A DNA stretch of 64,000 nucleotides from Planctomyces sp. SH-PL62. Lineage in GTDB: Bacteria > Planctomycetota > Planctomycetia > Isosphaerales > Isosphaeraceae. The stretch is from the NCBI RefSeq assembly GCF_001610895.1, contig NZ_CP011273.1, positions 372,001 through 436,000 on the forward strand, read 5' to 3'. A program made the position numbers and the translations under genes. Shown here in pieces: positions 26,408 to 49,572 of this stretch. The notes below the pieces were generated by a model, which made no database searches, was not told the DNA's origin, and saw nothing but the letters and a program-made list of their open reading frames with translations. The number at the start of each line of letters is the position of its first letter. Positions within the stretch are counted from its first letter, which is position 1.

Positions 26408-28011
26408 TCAGGGGAGGATCCGGGCCCCGACGGCCGAGTTGACGTCCAGGGCGTCGCGGCGATGGCGGACGATGGCGTCTCGGTAGCCCCGCACCCGCTC
26501 GTTGAAGTCGCGCTGGGCGTTGAGGAACTCGACGATGTTGGTCTCGCCTCCCTGCCAGCGTCGATAGGCGGCGTCGCGGACGCGGCGGGCGGCGGGGAGG
26601 ATCTGGCGCTCGGATTCGAGCATGGCCTGGCGGCTCAACTCGAATTCGTGGGCGATCTCGGCGACCTCGTCCTGGACCTGCCGTTCCAGGCGGGCCAGTT
26701 CGATGCGGGTCTGGTCGACGTTGAACCGGGCGCGGGCGATGTTCCCCTGGTTGCGGTTGTAGACCGGCAGCGGCGCCGTCAGGCCGACCGCCCATGATCG
26801 CGCGGGCTTGAGGCCGTCCGGGGTGTTGTCCTGGAAGGTGTAGGGCTGGTAGAGGAGGTAGAAGTCCGAGAGTCGCGAGCGCTCGGCGAGGCGGACGTCG
26901 GCGTGCGAGCGCATGACCCCCAGCCGCTGGGCGGCCAGGTCGGGCCGACGCTCCATCGCGACGGCGATCAGCTCGGCCTCGGCCATCGGCAGCGGGCGTT
27001 CGTCGCGGAGCTTGTCGTGGATCTCGATCGAGAGGGCCTGGTCGCGGGGGATGTTCAGGACCTGGGCCAGCGAGCGCGTGGTTCGCACGACCGCCTGGCT
27101 CGCCTCGCGGACCTGGAGCCTGGCGACCTCGCTCTGGGCGCGAAGGGCGAAGACCGGGTCTTCGGCGATCTGCTGCTTGTCCAACAAGTCTTCGTTGATG
27201 GAGAGGAGGCGATCGATCCCCTCCTGATACTTCAGGCTGTACTCTCGCGTCAGCGTGGCCGCGGCGACGTCGATGAAGGCCGTGTAGAGGTTGTCGATCA
27301 GGCGGCGGACGGCGTCCTGGAGCTGGGCCTCCACGGCGCGTTTGGCGACCTCGGCGACCTGGAGCCGGGCCTGCCGCTTCCGGTTGACGTCGAGCGGGTG
27401 GGTGATGTTGATGTCGTACTGGGTCTGGCCGCCGGGCCGCTCGCGGTTGAAACTTCCATACGGGACGAGCTGGGCGTCGGCGTAGAAGATGGGGTTGGCG
27501 CGGAGGCCGGCGGTGAGGACGTCGGCCTCGGCCATCGGGACCTCGTACTTCAGCGCCAGCAGGTCGAGGTTCTGCTGGAGGAGCAGGTTGACGGCGTCGT
27601 CGAGCGACAGGCCGGTCTCGGGCCCGACGGGGACGTCGGCGGCCGGCAGGTCGAGCGCGCCGTAAGCGGGCACGTCGGCCTCGGGGATCGCCGGGATGCG
27701 GAAGTCCGGGAGCCCCTCGCGGCGGATGCGGGTCGGGGGGGCGTGCCGGAGTCCAGCGGAGCCCGGGTGTTCGACGGGCCCGGGCGCCCGCCGATGACGG
27801 CCGACTCGACCTGGAACGGTGAGAATCCCGAGGCCCCCACCGCCGGCCCGAGCGCGCTCCGGCCCTCGCTGACGCCGGGCGGGTCGGGGACGTCGAATTC
27901 CGGGGTCTGGCCGAGGGCCGTCGAGGCGGTCGCCAGCCTCAACAGCCCGACCGCCAACGCCTGGCCGATGACGGATCGGCCGCGCCGCACCGCCGCGATT
28001 CGATGGAACAT
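26408..28011 (-). CDS. TolC family outer-membrane protein, apparent 1-nt frameshift
   Basis: About 534 residues when one base is restored. The first piece has a signal peptide (GLLRLATASTALGQ) and a linker up to APLDSGTPP. The second begins TRIRREGLPDFRIPAIPEAD and continues through the TolC core: SLDDAVNLLLQQNLDLLALK, VGLTAPLPVYNRNQGNIARA, and the C-terminal coiled coil ending GGETNIVEFLNAQRDFN. The break is in a run of seven G on the plus strand (27735-27741), where eight would restore the frame. It resembles CusC/CzcC-type efflux channels, but no RND pump or adaptor gene is nearby. It follows the riboswitch-linked DUF4465 gene on the same strand. Confidence 0.85.
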
Positions 28012-28200: not shown

Positions 28201-29064
28201 TCAGGCCGCGCGTCGACGGCCGCGATGCAGGGCGATTCCGGCCAGGCCGAGCCCCAGCATGGTCCAGGTCGCGGGCTCGGGGACGGCGGTCCCGGTTCCG
28301 GGGGCGGACGTGGTGAGGTTGTCGATGGCGGCGACGAGCGGCGTCCGGGCCTCGCCGTTGCGGTCCAGGTCGGTGGACTCGAAGTTGAAGCGGAGGGTCC
28401 GGGCGTCCGAGCCGAGCGAGGTCAGGTCGATCGTGCGCCATTTGTCGACGACGTACCAGTCGAGGGGGTTCGCGGCCCGGTAGTCGGCCAGGGTGACGAG
28501 GACCGAGCCGATCACGGCGCCGGAGGCGTCGAGGCCCTCGATCGCCAGTTGGAAGAAGTCGCCCGCGGCGAAGGCTCGCGCCCAGCCGTCGCCCTGGGTG
28601 ACGGCCTGCTGGGTGTACAGCGTGTTGGTCACGTCGATCGAGTAGGCGGACTGTCCCGCGGCCAGCGCGATCGTCGCGTAGCTCGTCAGGTAGGCGCTCT
28701 CCGGCGAGAAGGCGATCGCGTAATTGGCCGATCCCCCCGCGCCCGATCCCGGCGCGGCCAGGTACTGATTGAGGAAGTCGAGGTTGGGGTCCGTGCTCAG
28801 GGGCGTCGTCTGGTTCGAGAGGGCCCAGCCGTCCCAGTACGGGCCCCAGGTGTCGTCGAACGAGTTGTTGAACCGGTTGCCGTCGATGTCGAAGGCCCGT
28901 GACGGCCCGGCGTCGTTGACGATGCTCTCGGGGGCGGTCAGGCCGGGGAGATTCTCGAACGTGGTCGTCGTGTAGACGTCCCCCGCGCGGGCGGACGCGA
29001 CGACGGCGAGAGAGGAGGAAAGGATGACGGCGAGGATTCGAGCAGAAGCGGACGCGAGGCGCAT
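28201..29064 (-). CDS. PEP-CTERM DUF4465 protein under a cobalamin riboswitch
   Basis: A 287-residue secreted protein. Signal peptide about 1-28 (ILAVILSSSLAVVASARAG). The body shows DUF4465 hallmarks: TTFENLPG near the N-terminus, FNNSFDDTWGPYWDGWALSN, SYATIALAAGQSAYSIDVTN, NPLDWYVVDKWRTIDL, and FNFESTD. The C-terminus VPEPATWTMLGLGLAGIALH plus a basic tail is a PEP-CTERM signal, so the protein should be held at the cell surface. A cobalamin riboswitch and promoter lie directly upstream, so expression should fall when B12 is plentiful. From memory, Bacteroides DUF4465-type proteins near B12 transporters bind cobalamin; if so, this may be a surface B12 binder. That role is inference. Confidence 0.85.
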   Translation of the reverse strand: MRLASASARILAVILSSSLAVVASARAGDVYTTTTFENLPGLTAPESIVNDAGPSRAFDIDGNRFNNSFDDTWGPYWDGWALSNQTTPLSTDPNLDFLNQYLAAPGSGAGGSANYAIAFSPESAYLTSYATIALAAGQSAYSIDVTNTLYTQQAVTQGDGWARAFAAGDFFQLAIEGLDASGAVIGSVLVTLADYRAANPLDWYVVDKWRTIDLTSLGSDARTLRFNFESTDLDRNGEARTPLVAAIDNLTTSAPGTGTAVPEPATWTMLGLGLAGIALHRGRRRAA

Positions 29065-29204
29065 GGTTGGGACTCCGAGGGAAGACGCGCGCAGGGGGTC
29101 CCGCGCGGGGATGGGAGGTCGTCGTTTCCGGTGAGTCGCTGGGAGCAGAAGGCCTGCGTACGCGCTCGCCCGGATGCTCGCGGCCGAAGCATCCCAAGCA
29201 ATGA

Positions 29205-29394
29205 GGAGCCTGACGGGCAGGTCTTCTGGCTCTCGGCCTGGCGTCGAGCGGCCTTCCCACCTTGCGGCAGTGGCCCTGCGGCTCGCGCTTCCGGCCGATT
29301 ACAGCGGCGGCCCCGCGCCGGATTCTCACCGGCTTCCCTATTCTTCCCGTTCCGGGGCCGAGCCGAAGCCGACCCCCCGGGACGCCCGTCAAGC
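29205..29394 (-). ncRNA. Cobalamin (AdoCbl) riboswitch
   Basis: Read on the minus strand, the conserved elements appear in order. They are GGGAAGCCGGTGAGAATCCG, then GCCGCCGCTGTAATCGG, GCCACTG, GGGAAGG, and the B12 box AGCCAGAAGACCTGCC near the 3' end. These match the cobalamin riboswitch consensus in both sequence and spacing. The start of the DUF4465 gene is about 140 nt downstream, with a small hairpin between (ggatgct / agcatcc near 29169-29193) that lacks a T tract. Translational control is thus more likely than termination. No other gene lies between. Confidence 0.93.
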
Positions 29395-29400
29395 AGGCCG

Positions 29401-29430
29401 ATTAGACCATCGCGTCATGCGGGGCGTCAA
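29401..29430 (-). promoter_or_regulatory. Promoter of the riboswitch transcript
   Basis: On the minus strand TTGACG (29430-29425) and TCTAAT (29406-29401) are separated by 18 nt. Predicted initiation near 29394 falls just before the riboswitch aptamer, which supports both calls. Confidence 0.65.
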
Positions 29431-43154: not shown

Positions 43155-44234
43155 TCAGTACGAGTCGGCGCTGAGGACCTCGCCGCCGGAGCGGGAGCCG
43201 AGCGCCCACCAGGCGGGGAGGCTGATCGAGTCCTTGACGAACCGGACCGAGCCGTCGGCCAGGGCGACGTTCACGCCGCCGGAGTGGTTGCTGCTCGCCG
43301 CCGCCGAGCCCGTCGGGCCGACGAACTGGACGTACGAGATGTCGCCCGCGTTGCCGCAGTGCAGGCTGTTGGGCCGGGCGACGTGCATGTAGTTCACCAG
43401 CGAGACGTGCGTCGGATACCCCAGCAGCCAGTTGTAGCCGAGGTAGGCCGAGGCCCCCGCGTTGGCCGTGGTCGTCGGCGGCAGGGTCATGCACGCCTGG
43501 GCCGCCCTCATGGCCCCGTCGGCCCCCGTCCCCACCCCCGACGTGTCCACGCCGGGGAAGATCACCCGCCTGGCGTCCTTGGAGTTGGGCGTGATCGACG
43601 CCACCCCCGGCGCGAGGCCCAGGCCGATCAGGTGCTCGCTGAAGACCGCGGTGTTCGACGTGCCGTCGGTGATCGAGGCGATCCGGACGGTTCCCGCGCC
43701 TCCCCCCCAGCCGGTCGTGCCGATCCCGCCGTTGAGCAACAGGTCCTTCGGCGGCACGATCGTCCCGCTGTAGGCCATGATCTGGCCGGGGCCGCCGTAG
43801 TTGCCCACGTAGCTGCTGGTCGCCCAGGGATAACCCGGCCGCTGGGAGATCGACTCCGACGGGCAGAGCAGAGACGCGACCTGCGTGTAACCGGCCGTCG
43901 TCATGTGCAGGCCGTAGTTGCCGAGCGAGAAGTTCATCGAGTCGAACAGCGCGCCCTGCTCGATCTGCGGCAGGATCGCCACCGTCCAGGACCACGAGAA
44001 GCCCGAGTCCTGGATCTCCGACGTCGGGTAGTTGCACTGCATCGGCATGACGTCATAAGTCGAGATGTAGTTCTGCGCCGCCAGCCCGAGCTGCTTCAGG
44101 TTGTTGACGCACTGCGCCCGGCGGGCGGCCTCGCGCGCCGACTGGACGGCCGGCAGCAGCAGGGCGATCAGGACGGCGATGATGGCGATGACCACCAGCA
44201 GCTCGATCAGCGTGAATCCACGGTTCCGACGCAT
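43155..44234 (-). CDS. DUF1559 domain protein with pilin-like N-terminus
   Basis: A 359-residue protein starting [20 protein letters not shown], a type IV prepilin-like signal with the cleavage Gly and Glu5, then [20 protein letters not shown] and [15 protein letters not shown]. The C-terminal [20 protein letters not shown] is the DUF1559 hallmark ending. A prepilin peptidase is expected to process it; the mature protein should be on the outer face of the cytoplasmic membrane. The ATG at 44234 follows TTGAGGAG. It is the first gene of a likely operon and is divergent from a XylR-type regulator. Confidence 0.95.
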
Positions 44235-48534: not shown

Positions 48535-49572
48535 ATGATGACTGCCCTACCCCGGCGCGCGTCTCAACGCGGGTTCACGCTGATCGAGCTCCTCGTGGTG
48601 ATCGCCATCATCGCCGTCCTGATCGCCCTGCTGCTGCCGGCCGTCCAGTCGGCTCGCGAGGCCGCCCGCCGCTCGCAGTGCACGAACAACATGAAGCAGA
48701 TCGGCCTGGCGATGCACAACTACGAGTCGGCCCACGGCTCGTTCCCGCCGGCGAAGATCTGGTCGGCCACGACCATCGCGACGTCCAACGACGCCGAAGG
48801 CCAGGGCTTCGTGCTGAACACCACCGCCCTGGTCCTGATCCTGCCCCAGCTCGAGCAGACGGCGCTGGCCAACGCCTACAACTACGCCCTGCCGTCGTGC
48901 CCGGCGACCAACGCCGCGCCCAACAACAAGCCGGTGGGCGGGGTGTCGTCGTACCTGGCGAACACGACCGTCACGTCGTCGGTCGTCGCCGCCTACAACT
49001 GCCCGTCGGACGAGGTCGTCGAGCCCTACAACCCCACGGCGGCGACGGCCGTCGGCCCCTACAACGGCTACCTCTCGCAGCGTTGCAACTACGCCCTCCC
49101 CTGCGCCCTGCTGTATGAGAACGGCAACGGCCGGTCCAACACCAGCCGGCCCCGCGACGGCGGCGTCTTCTCGTACAACGACCGGGGGACGACGATCGCC
49201 AACATCACCGACGGCACCAGCAACACGACGCTGATCCTGGAATCCCGGAAGCTGAAGACGAGCATCGCCTACGGCCCGTACTGGGGCCAGGGGCTGTGGA
49301 CGTCGACGCACGCCCTGGTCTACCCCAAGACCAGCACCGGCTGGCCCGGCACGATGCCGAACGGCGTGGCGTTGATCGCCAACGTCTCCGCGGCCAACAA
49401 CCCCAAGAAGCTCGGCTACGCCTGGTCGAACAGCAGCCGGCACCCCGGCGGCGTCAACGTCGCCTTCGCCGACGGCTCGGTCAAGTTCATCAAGAACTCG
49501 ATCGACCCCGAGGCCTGGTACGGCATCCAGACCATCGGCAACGGCGAGGTCGTCAGCTCCGACTCGCTCTGA
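48535..49572 (+). CDS. DUF1559 domain protein with pilin-like N-terminus
   Basis: A 345-residue protein. After a short leader comes the prepilin-like segment [20 protein letters not shown], then [20 protein letters not shown]. Internal DUF1559 landmarks are [19 protein letters not shown] and the final [20 protein letters not shown]. It shares the plan of the copy at 43155-44234, but the middle differs. ggaggag lies ahead of the start; the second of two adjacent ATG codons (48538) is also possible. A lipoprotein gene follows 105 nt downstream, the usual partner. Confidence 0.95.

Follow-up and report, generated by a model that had tools for sequence, protein, structure and literature searches.

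The window, a 64-kb stretch of the genome of Planctomyces sp. SH-PL62 (64,000 nucleotides), carries a cobalamin riboswitch ahead of a gene for a secreted DUF4465 protein with a PEP-CTERM sorting tail. We consider it rather likely that this is a B12-starvation locus for cobamide capture in the manner of BtuJ1/BtuJ2 of Bacteroides, in which an exosortase anchor would take the place of the lipid anchor, BtuB would be absent and the window copy would be a remodelled paralogue. B12 binding by DUF4465 proteins is already known from work published in 2025-26 (PMC13398666, PMC12751083), and the pairing of DUF4465 and riboswitch in the window is of an ordinary kind, the copy itself being a variant. What makes the locus interesting is its context, a B12 regulon that is exosortase-anchored, apparently lacks BtuB and includes a group of pseudopilins. 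New here is that the regulon also contains a BtuH-like PEP-CTERM protein, DUF1559 genes and, in the genus of the window, a TolC-like gene. The features are collected in Table 1.

Table 1. Features of the window locus and the riboswitch-linked BtuH-like gene of the same genome. Positions are those of the window unless a locus is named.
Feature	Position	Strand	Evidence
TolC-family outer-membrane protein	26408..28011	-	PF02321 OEP, E 1.2e-30, 107.2 bits vs 22
DUF4465 secreted protein, 287 aa	28201..29064	-	PF14717, E 8.4e-40, aa 72-250
PEP-CTERM sorting tail, aa 260-283	28216..28287	-	PF07589, E 8e-7
Short hairpin GGATGCT / AGCATCC, candidate expression platform	29172..29194	-	sequence, directly 3′ of aptamer
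Cobalamin riboswitch aptamer RF00174	29199..29397	-	79.4 bits, E 6.3e-18, model 1-189
Promoter-like TTGACG-18-TCTAAT adjoining aptamer	29401..29430	-	seen by eye
Riboswitch-linked BtuH-like PEP-CTERM protein	L014:2542-3426		PF07589, 22.6 bits vs 20.7

The riboswitch and the DUF4465 gene of the window

An Rfam search of the 64-kb window at gathering score returned the full-length cobalamin riboswitch (gathering score 31.5) and one tRNA, with no further match. The preliminary description had placed the riboswitch at 29205-29394, which is correct within a few bases at the ends, and the comparison with the Rfam cobalamin model that it proposed gave a score above gathering. The aptamer ends 134 nt before the start of the DUF4465 gene. 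The riboswitch had also been credited with a promoter of its own; a promoter-like sequence is indeed seen by eye, but a strict sigma-70 scan returned no promoter ahead of the riboswitch, and the element is an unproven candidate. A loose promoter pattern of this kind was found ahead of 36 of the 82 Isosphaeraceae riboswitches examined (92 known), and a hairpin similar to the candidate expression platform was found by pattern search on the 3′ side of 31 of the 82. The two terminator-like sites detected (shuffle mean 1.8) both lie on the opposite strand, at 26.1-26.3 kb. When adenosylcobalamin is scarce the riboswitch would leave expression on, and the locus would be one of B12 starvation.

The gene product had been described as a DUF4465 protein with a PEP-CTERM tail, and both parts were confirmed by profiles above cut-off. 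PF14717 scored 137.4 bits against a cut-off of 25, PF07589 29.3 bits against 20.7 and TIGR02595 18.5 against 16. A signal peptide can be recognised by eye, and the C-terminus displays a PEP motif, a hydrophobic stretch and a basic end. The genome contains three matches to exosortase (PF09721, E 5.3e-62 to 3.7e-54). After export the protein is predicted to be sorted via its tail by exosortase and presented in the cell envelope; there it would hold cobamides for delivery to an inner-membrane importer of the BtuCDF type, encoded behind another riboswitch of the genome.

The exosortase-anchored form had been proposed as a new architecture in a planctomycete; the PEP-CTERM tail was present (E ≤ 0.01) in 26 of the 29 DUF4465 proteins scanned, taken from the 39 Isosphaeraceae matches, and a tail special to the window gene is ruled out. 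The main text of PMC13398666 mentions neither PEP-CTERM nor exosortase. Literature searches returned no paper joining Planctomycetes, cobalamin and PEP-CTERM and none joining "cobalamin riboswitch" and "Planctomycet"; among the papers naming both PEP-CTERM and vitamin B12, none was by its title on this subject.

Known B12 binders and the pocket of the window copy

Eight DUF4465 proteins with identities as low as 16%, one of them from the planctomycete Mucisphaera calidilacus, have been reported to bind B12, with a complex solved at 1.85 Å (9HMU) (PMC13398666), and BtuJ1/BtuJ2 of Bacteroides thetaiotaomicron (PDB 9FCT, 9I2L) are the subject of PMC12751083. The role in B12 binding which the preliminary description gave to DUF4465 proteins therefore stands for the family (PMC13398666), but the naming does not, as the family is BtuJ and not BtuH. 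A PDB sequence search found the closest solved relative of the window protein in the B12 complex of D5EK51 from Coraliomargarita akajimensis (9HMU, E 2.4e-24); D5EK51 and the protein "Pan" of M. calidilacus are both B12 binders (PMC13398666). With BtuJ1/BtuJ2 the window protein shares the DUF4465 domain, secretion, the equivalents of Tyr146 and Thr242 and a riboswitch-regulated locus (PMC13398666). It differs from them in the PEP-CTERM tail in place of the lipid anchor, in the absence of the HI-loop tyrosine and asparagine, and in its setting, where no neighbouring btuB was seen and the Isosphaeraceae genomes searched gave no TonB plug.

The conserved hydrogen-bonding residues named in PMC12751083 are read here as BtuJ1 Tyr146, Asn241, Thr242 and Tyr245, the asparagine pair being printed there in the other order. 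The HI-loop tyrosine is termed universal in the same paper and was reported as retained in 97% in PMC13398666. The window copy keeps the DE-helix tyrosine (Tyr150, corresponding to BtuJ1 Tyr146), Thr241 and Pro242, whereas Asn241 is changed to Arg240 and Tyr245 to Val244, and its HI-loop reads RTPLV where known binders have Asn-Thr-Pro-x-Tyr. Because this feature of the known binders is missing, the copy is not filed as a canonical BtuJ. The earlier proposal of B12 capture thus holds for the family and is less certain for the window copy, since the pocket tyrosine and asparagine are gone; the copy may still bind cobamides. Its AlphaFold model, made from the single sequence, is too poor for use on the pocket (pLDDT 32.8).

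Among 35 aligned Isosphaeraceae proteins, the position of the HI-loop tyrosine is occupied by Tyr in 27, Ser in three, Thr in two and by Ala, Phe and Val in one each, the Val being that of the window copy. The corresponding counts in the named multi-phylum set were 75 Tyr and 4 Phe of 79, a biased set in that the search patterns contained NTP[AG]Y. Three DUF4465 copies of another genus (L118, L119 and L144) carry the Ser, apparently a separate loss. The RTPL motif is common to the window copy and two other Paludisphaera copies (genomes G029 and G031). The three RTPL copies are 67-75% identical with a dN/dS of 0.36-0.48, a rough value given the biased synonymous sites of a GC-rich genome, and their genomes' canonical paralogues are 55-59% identical to one another. 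Since the RTPL copies are more alike than the canonical paralogues, the altered protein appears to be maintained. Sister copies in the genus of the window diverge around the pocket, and the same genome encodes a canonical riboswitch-linked DUF4465 paralogue with NTPAY and a PEP-CTERM-like end (L013:9236-10159). Judged by these residues, the window copy is probably a remodelled paralogue with a changed affinity or cobamide preference.

The DUF4465-riboswitch pair and the B12 regulon

DUF4465 was found in 29 of 45 Isosphaeraceae genomes (39 matches) and cobalamin riboswitches in 41 of them (n = 92). When these genomes were searched for the pair, as had been suggested beforehand, 36 of the 39 DUF4465 matches had a same-strand riboswitch within 4 kb upstream; of the three unlinked ones, two lie near contig ends (710 and 172 nt upstream) and the third is fragmentary, covering 63 of 176 profile positions. 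Across 392 genomes of the phylum DUF4465 occurred in 11, the genome of the window among them. The other ten genomes contributed 11 further loci, of which ten had a riboswitch upstream and the eleventh gene lies 128 nt from a contig end. In a named set of 79 loci from Planctomycetota, Bacteroidota, Proteobacteria and others, collected with a small canonical alignment because one of 29 DUF4465 members proved too diverse for that scan, 66 had an upstream match to our own riboswitch model (E up to 0.1, three of the 66 being weaker than 1e-3). All 69 riboswitch matches were on the strand of the gene, and several of the 13 loci with no match have little upstream sequence. A riboswitch linkage special to this clade is ruled out by its presence across phyla.

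The genome (6.78 Mb, 5 contigs, with the window at 372001-436000 of contig 1) most likely belongs to Paludisphaera, a genus of Isosphaeraceae. Its seven cobalamin riboswitches precede the window DUF4465 gene, the nrdAB genes of class I ribonucleotide reductase, a desaturase gene, an inner-membrane importer (PF01497, PF01032 and PF00005 proteins 3′ of the riboswitch), the canonical DUF4465 gene, the BtuH-like gene and a DUF1559-TolC pair. The PF03405 desaturase (L010:9358-10640) stands directly behind its riboswitch and adjoins the riboswitch-linked nrdAB operon. MetE and CobN are riboswitch targets in relatives. A plasmid search gave one distant partial match.

The preliminary description had referred to DUF4465-type proteins of Bacteroides acting near BtuB, which found no counterpart here: no adjoining btuB was seen, and the TonB plug (PF07715) was detected in none of the 45 Isosphaeraceae genomes, including the 26 with a completeness of 90% or more and little contamination. 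The same profile matched in 286 of the 392 genomes across the phylum and, among 14 control genomes, in the three of E. coli, Caulobacter and Bacteroides. Isosphaeraceae thus apparently have no evident BtuB, a statement drawn from the plug domain PF07715 and covering receptors with a recognisable plug.

The riboswitch-linked BtuH-like PEP-CTERM locus covers L014:1995-3426. The protein had 15 strong matches in Isosphaeraceae, three matches of 20.9-22.7 bits having been dropped beforehand, and all 15 were behind riboswitches within 4 kb. A homologous domain was detected in 54 of the 79 named DUF4465 loci. In all seven chosen Pirellulaceae-type loci and in two Isosphaeraceae genomes this domain and DUF4465 are joined in a single open frame; such single frames, in either order, are exemplified by L111:3068-4729, L112:5260-6996 and L206:5302-6819. 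Pfam returned nothing convincing for the family besides PEP-CTERM. Its profile, however, matched BtuG1 of the BtuB1G1 complex (8blw_B, E 3.2e-4) at residues 385-497, where the C-terminal extension of BtuG1 begins, and this extension is homologous to the B12-binding BtuH2 (PMC10404256).

An AlphaFold model of a homologue from Aquabacterium (L223, not the L014 protein itself) reached a pLDDT of 94.2. A structure search with this model placed 7biz_B (BtuH2) first with a Z of 12.5 over residues 318-593, ahead of 8blw_B (11.4) and the next row (9.3), and in Foldseek 8blw_B ranked first (E 1.8e-4). Judged on this homologue, the fold is that of the C-terminal B12-binding domain of BtuH2. The L014 protein family is related to BtuH2 and the BtuG1 H-domain (7BIZ, 8BLW) by fold and by weak sequence kinship, but the L014-type protein is only 18-22% identical to them, and it is distinct from the window protein. 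On the modelled fold, the family is probably a further B12 binder across several phyla.

TolC and DUF1559 genes and a possible passage through the outer membrane

The TolC-family gene reported downstream on the same strand was recovered in the profile search. It starts about 190 nt 3′ of the DUF4465 stop (gaps of 189-194 in three relatives). The main frame extends from about 27922 down to 26408 and the signal-peptide end lies in another frame (27550-28011), with the shift near 27.9 kb; four TolC relatives compared by tblastn each have a single open frame, and the frame change is either a sequencing error or a real lesion. Of 84 TolC matches kept from 25 Isosphaeraceae genomes after weaker rows were dropped, eight stand no more than 6 kb downstream of a riboswitch, every one of them from Paludisphaera and two from the genome of the window (the window and L012); no linkage outside Paludisphaera was seen among the 84. 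The second locus reads riboswitch-DUF1559-TolC (L012:2348-5595), with the DUF1559 gene at L012:2684-3658. In another Paludisphaera genome (G028) the order is riboswitch-DUF1559-DUF4465-TolC in one row. This arrangement links the window locus with the L012 type and suggests the loss of a DUF1559 gene from the former. By their regulation and neighbourhood, TolC and DUF1559 may have a role in transport.

The window copy might instead have lost B12 binding and kept its riboswitch by descent, serving now as a partner of TolC, as a structural protein or for another ligand under B12 shortage. This we hold to be unlikely, though it has points in its favour: two of the four conserved hydrogen-bonding residues are gone, a change common to three Paludisphaera copies that are otherwise constrained, TolC is the neighbour in five of the six genomes of the genus, and a canonical DUF4465 copy remains elsewhere in the genome. 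Yet Tyr150, Thr241 and Pro242 are kept, the DUF4465 profile score is still high at 138.7 bits, and the WX and YA pocket loops also differ among known binders (PMC13398666).

A role of the locus in metal or cobalt homeostasis, with TolC as part of a CzcCBA-like line of efflux or uptake, appears very improbable. The TolC protein is weakly similar to the metal exporter subunit IhpA, far below cut-off, and in some bacteria cobalt transporters are under cobalamin riboswitch control. Against metal traffic, inspection of the ORFs of 22-35 kb by eye showed no CzcA/CzcB-like gene, B12 binding has been demonstrated for the DUF4465 fold, and the other riboswitch targets seen serve to spare or import B12 or, in one relative, to make it. 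Cobamide capture by a remodelled BtuJ-like paralogue remains the preferred reading.

DUF1559 is described as a family of unknown function, with 68 paralogues in Planctopirus limnophila, two of them essential (PMC10632474). PF07596 and an N-methylation domain are present in the two riboswitch-linked genes that were scanned, as in the DUF1559/SBP_bac_10 prepilin-like proteins of Planctomycetes. A DUF1559 start was found on the same strand 3′ of 42 of 80 riboswitches, and on the opposite strand of none; the 80 are those with 1.26 kb downstream among 82 of the 92 Isosphaeraceae riboswitches, and 42/80 overstates the fraction, seven of the ten left out having the BtuH-like gene 340-593 nt downstream. 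By density about 1% would be expected (107 DUF1559 matches in the 6.78 Mb of the genome). Upstream of the riboswitch, on either strand, DUF1559 was present in 6 of 36. In many loci, also in Pirellulaceae, a DUF1559 gene separates the riboswitch from DUF4465. The window has DUF1559 matches at 43224-44144 (-) and 48646-49512 (+), not near its one riboswitch.

When 103 DUF1559 domains were placed in a tree, one group (SH-aLRT 99; bootstrap 70, a value that had not settled) took in 54 of the 66 riboswitch-linked rows together with four others and spanned Isosphaeraceae and Pirellulaceae, and 20 other DUF1559 genes picked from the genome of the window all fell outside it. Of the four others, L190 has a same-strand riboswitch and was mislabelled, L209 lies further down a riboswitch operon, L226 is at a contig end and L193 is divergent from a riboswitch. 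The remaining 12 linked rows are elsewhere in the tree, where the starred branches force at least eight label changes, and the linkage has therefore been gained or lost repeatedly; the loci are related by descent and the counts overstate their independence. No paper joining DUF1559 and riboswitch was returned by the literature search.

The content of the regulon suggests TonB-independent cobamide capture and uptake, with an inferred route of the cobamide across the outer membrane. A wider and tentative proposal, possible rather than probable, is that Planctomycetes without BtuB would take up cobamides at the surface independently of TonB and under riboswitch control, by BtuJ-like and BtuH-like PEP-CTERM capture, a B12-dedicated group of DUF1559 pseudopilins handling or moving the vitamin at the envelope and, in Paludisphaera, a TolC-like passage; DUF1559 paralogues would then be ligand-specific, nutrient-switched capture pilins. 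A B12 riboswitch ahead of DUF1559, BtuJ-like, BtuH-like and TolC-like genes supplies a defined set of genes together with their ligand and their switch, which makes both the passage of B12 through an outer membrane that lacks BtuB and the role of DUF1559 testable in a genus with cultivated members.
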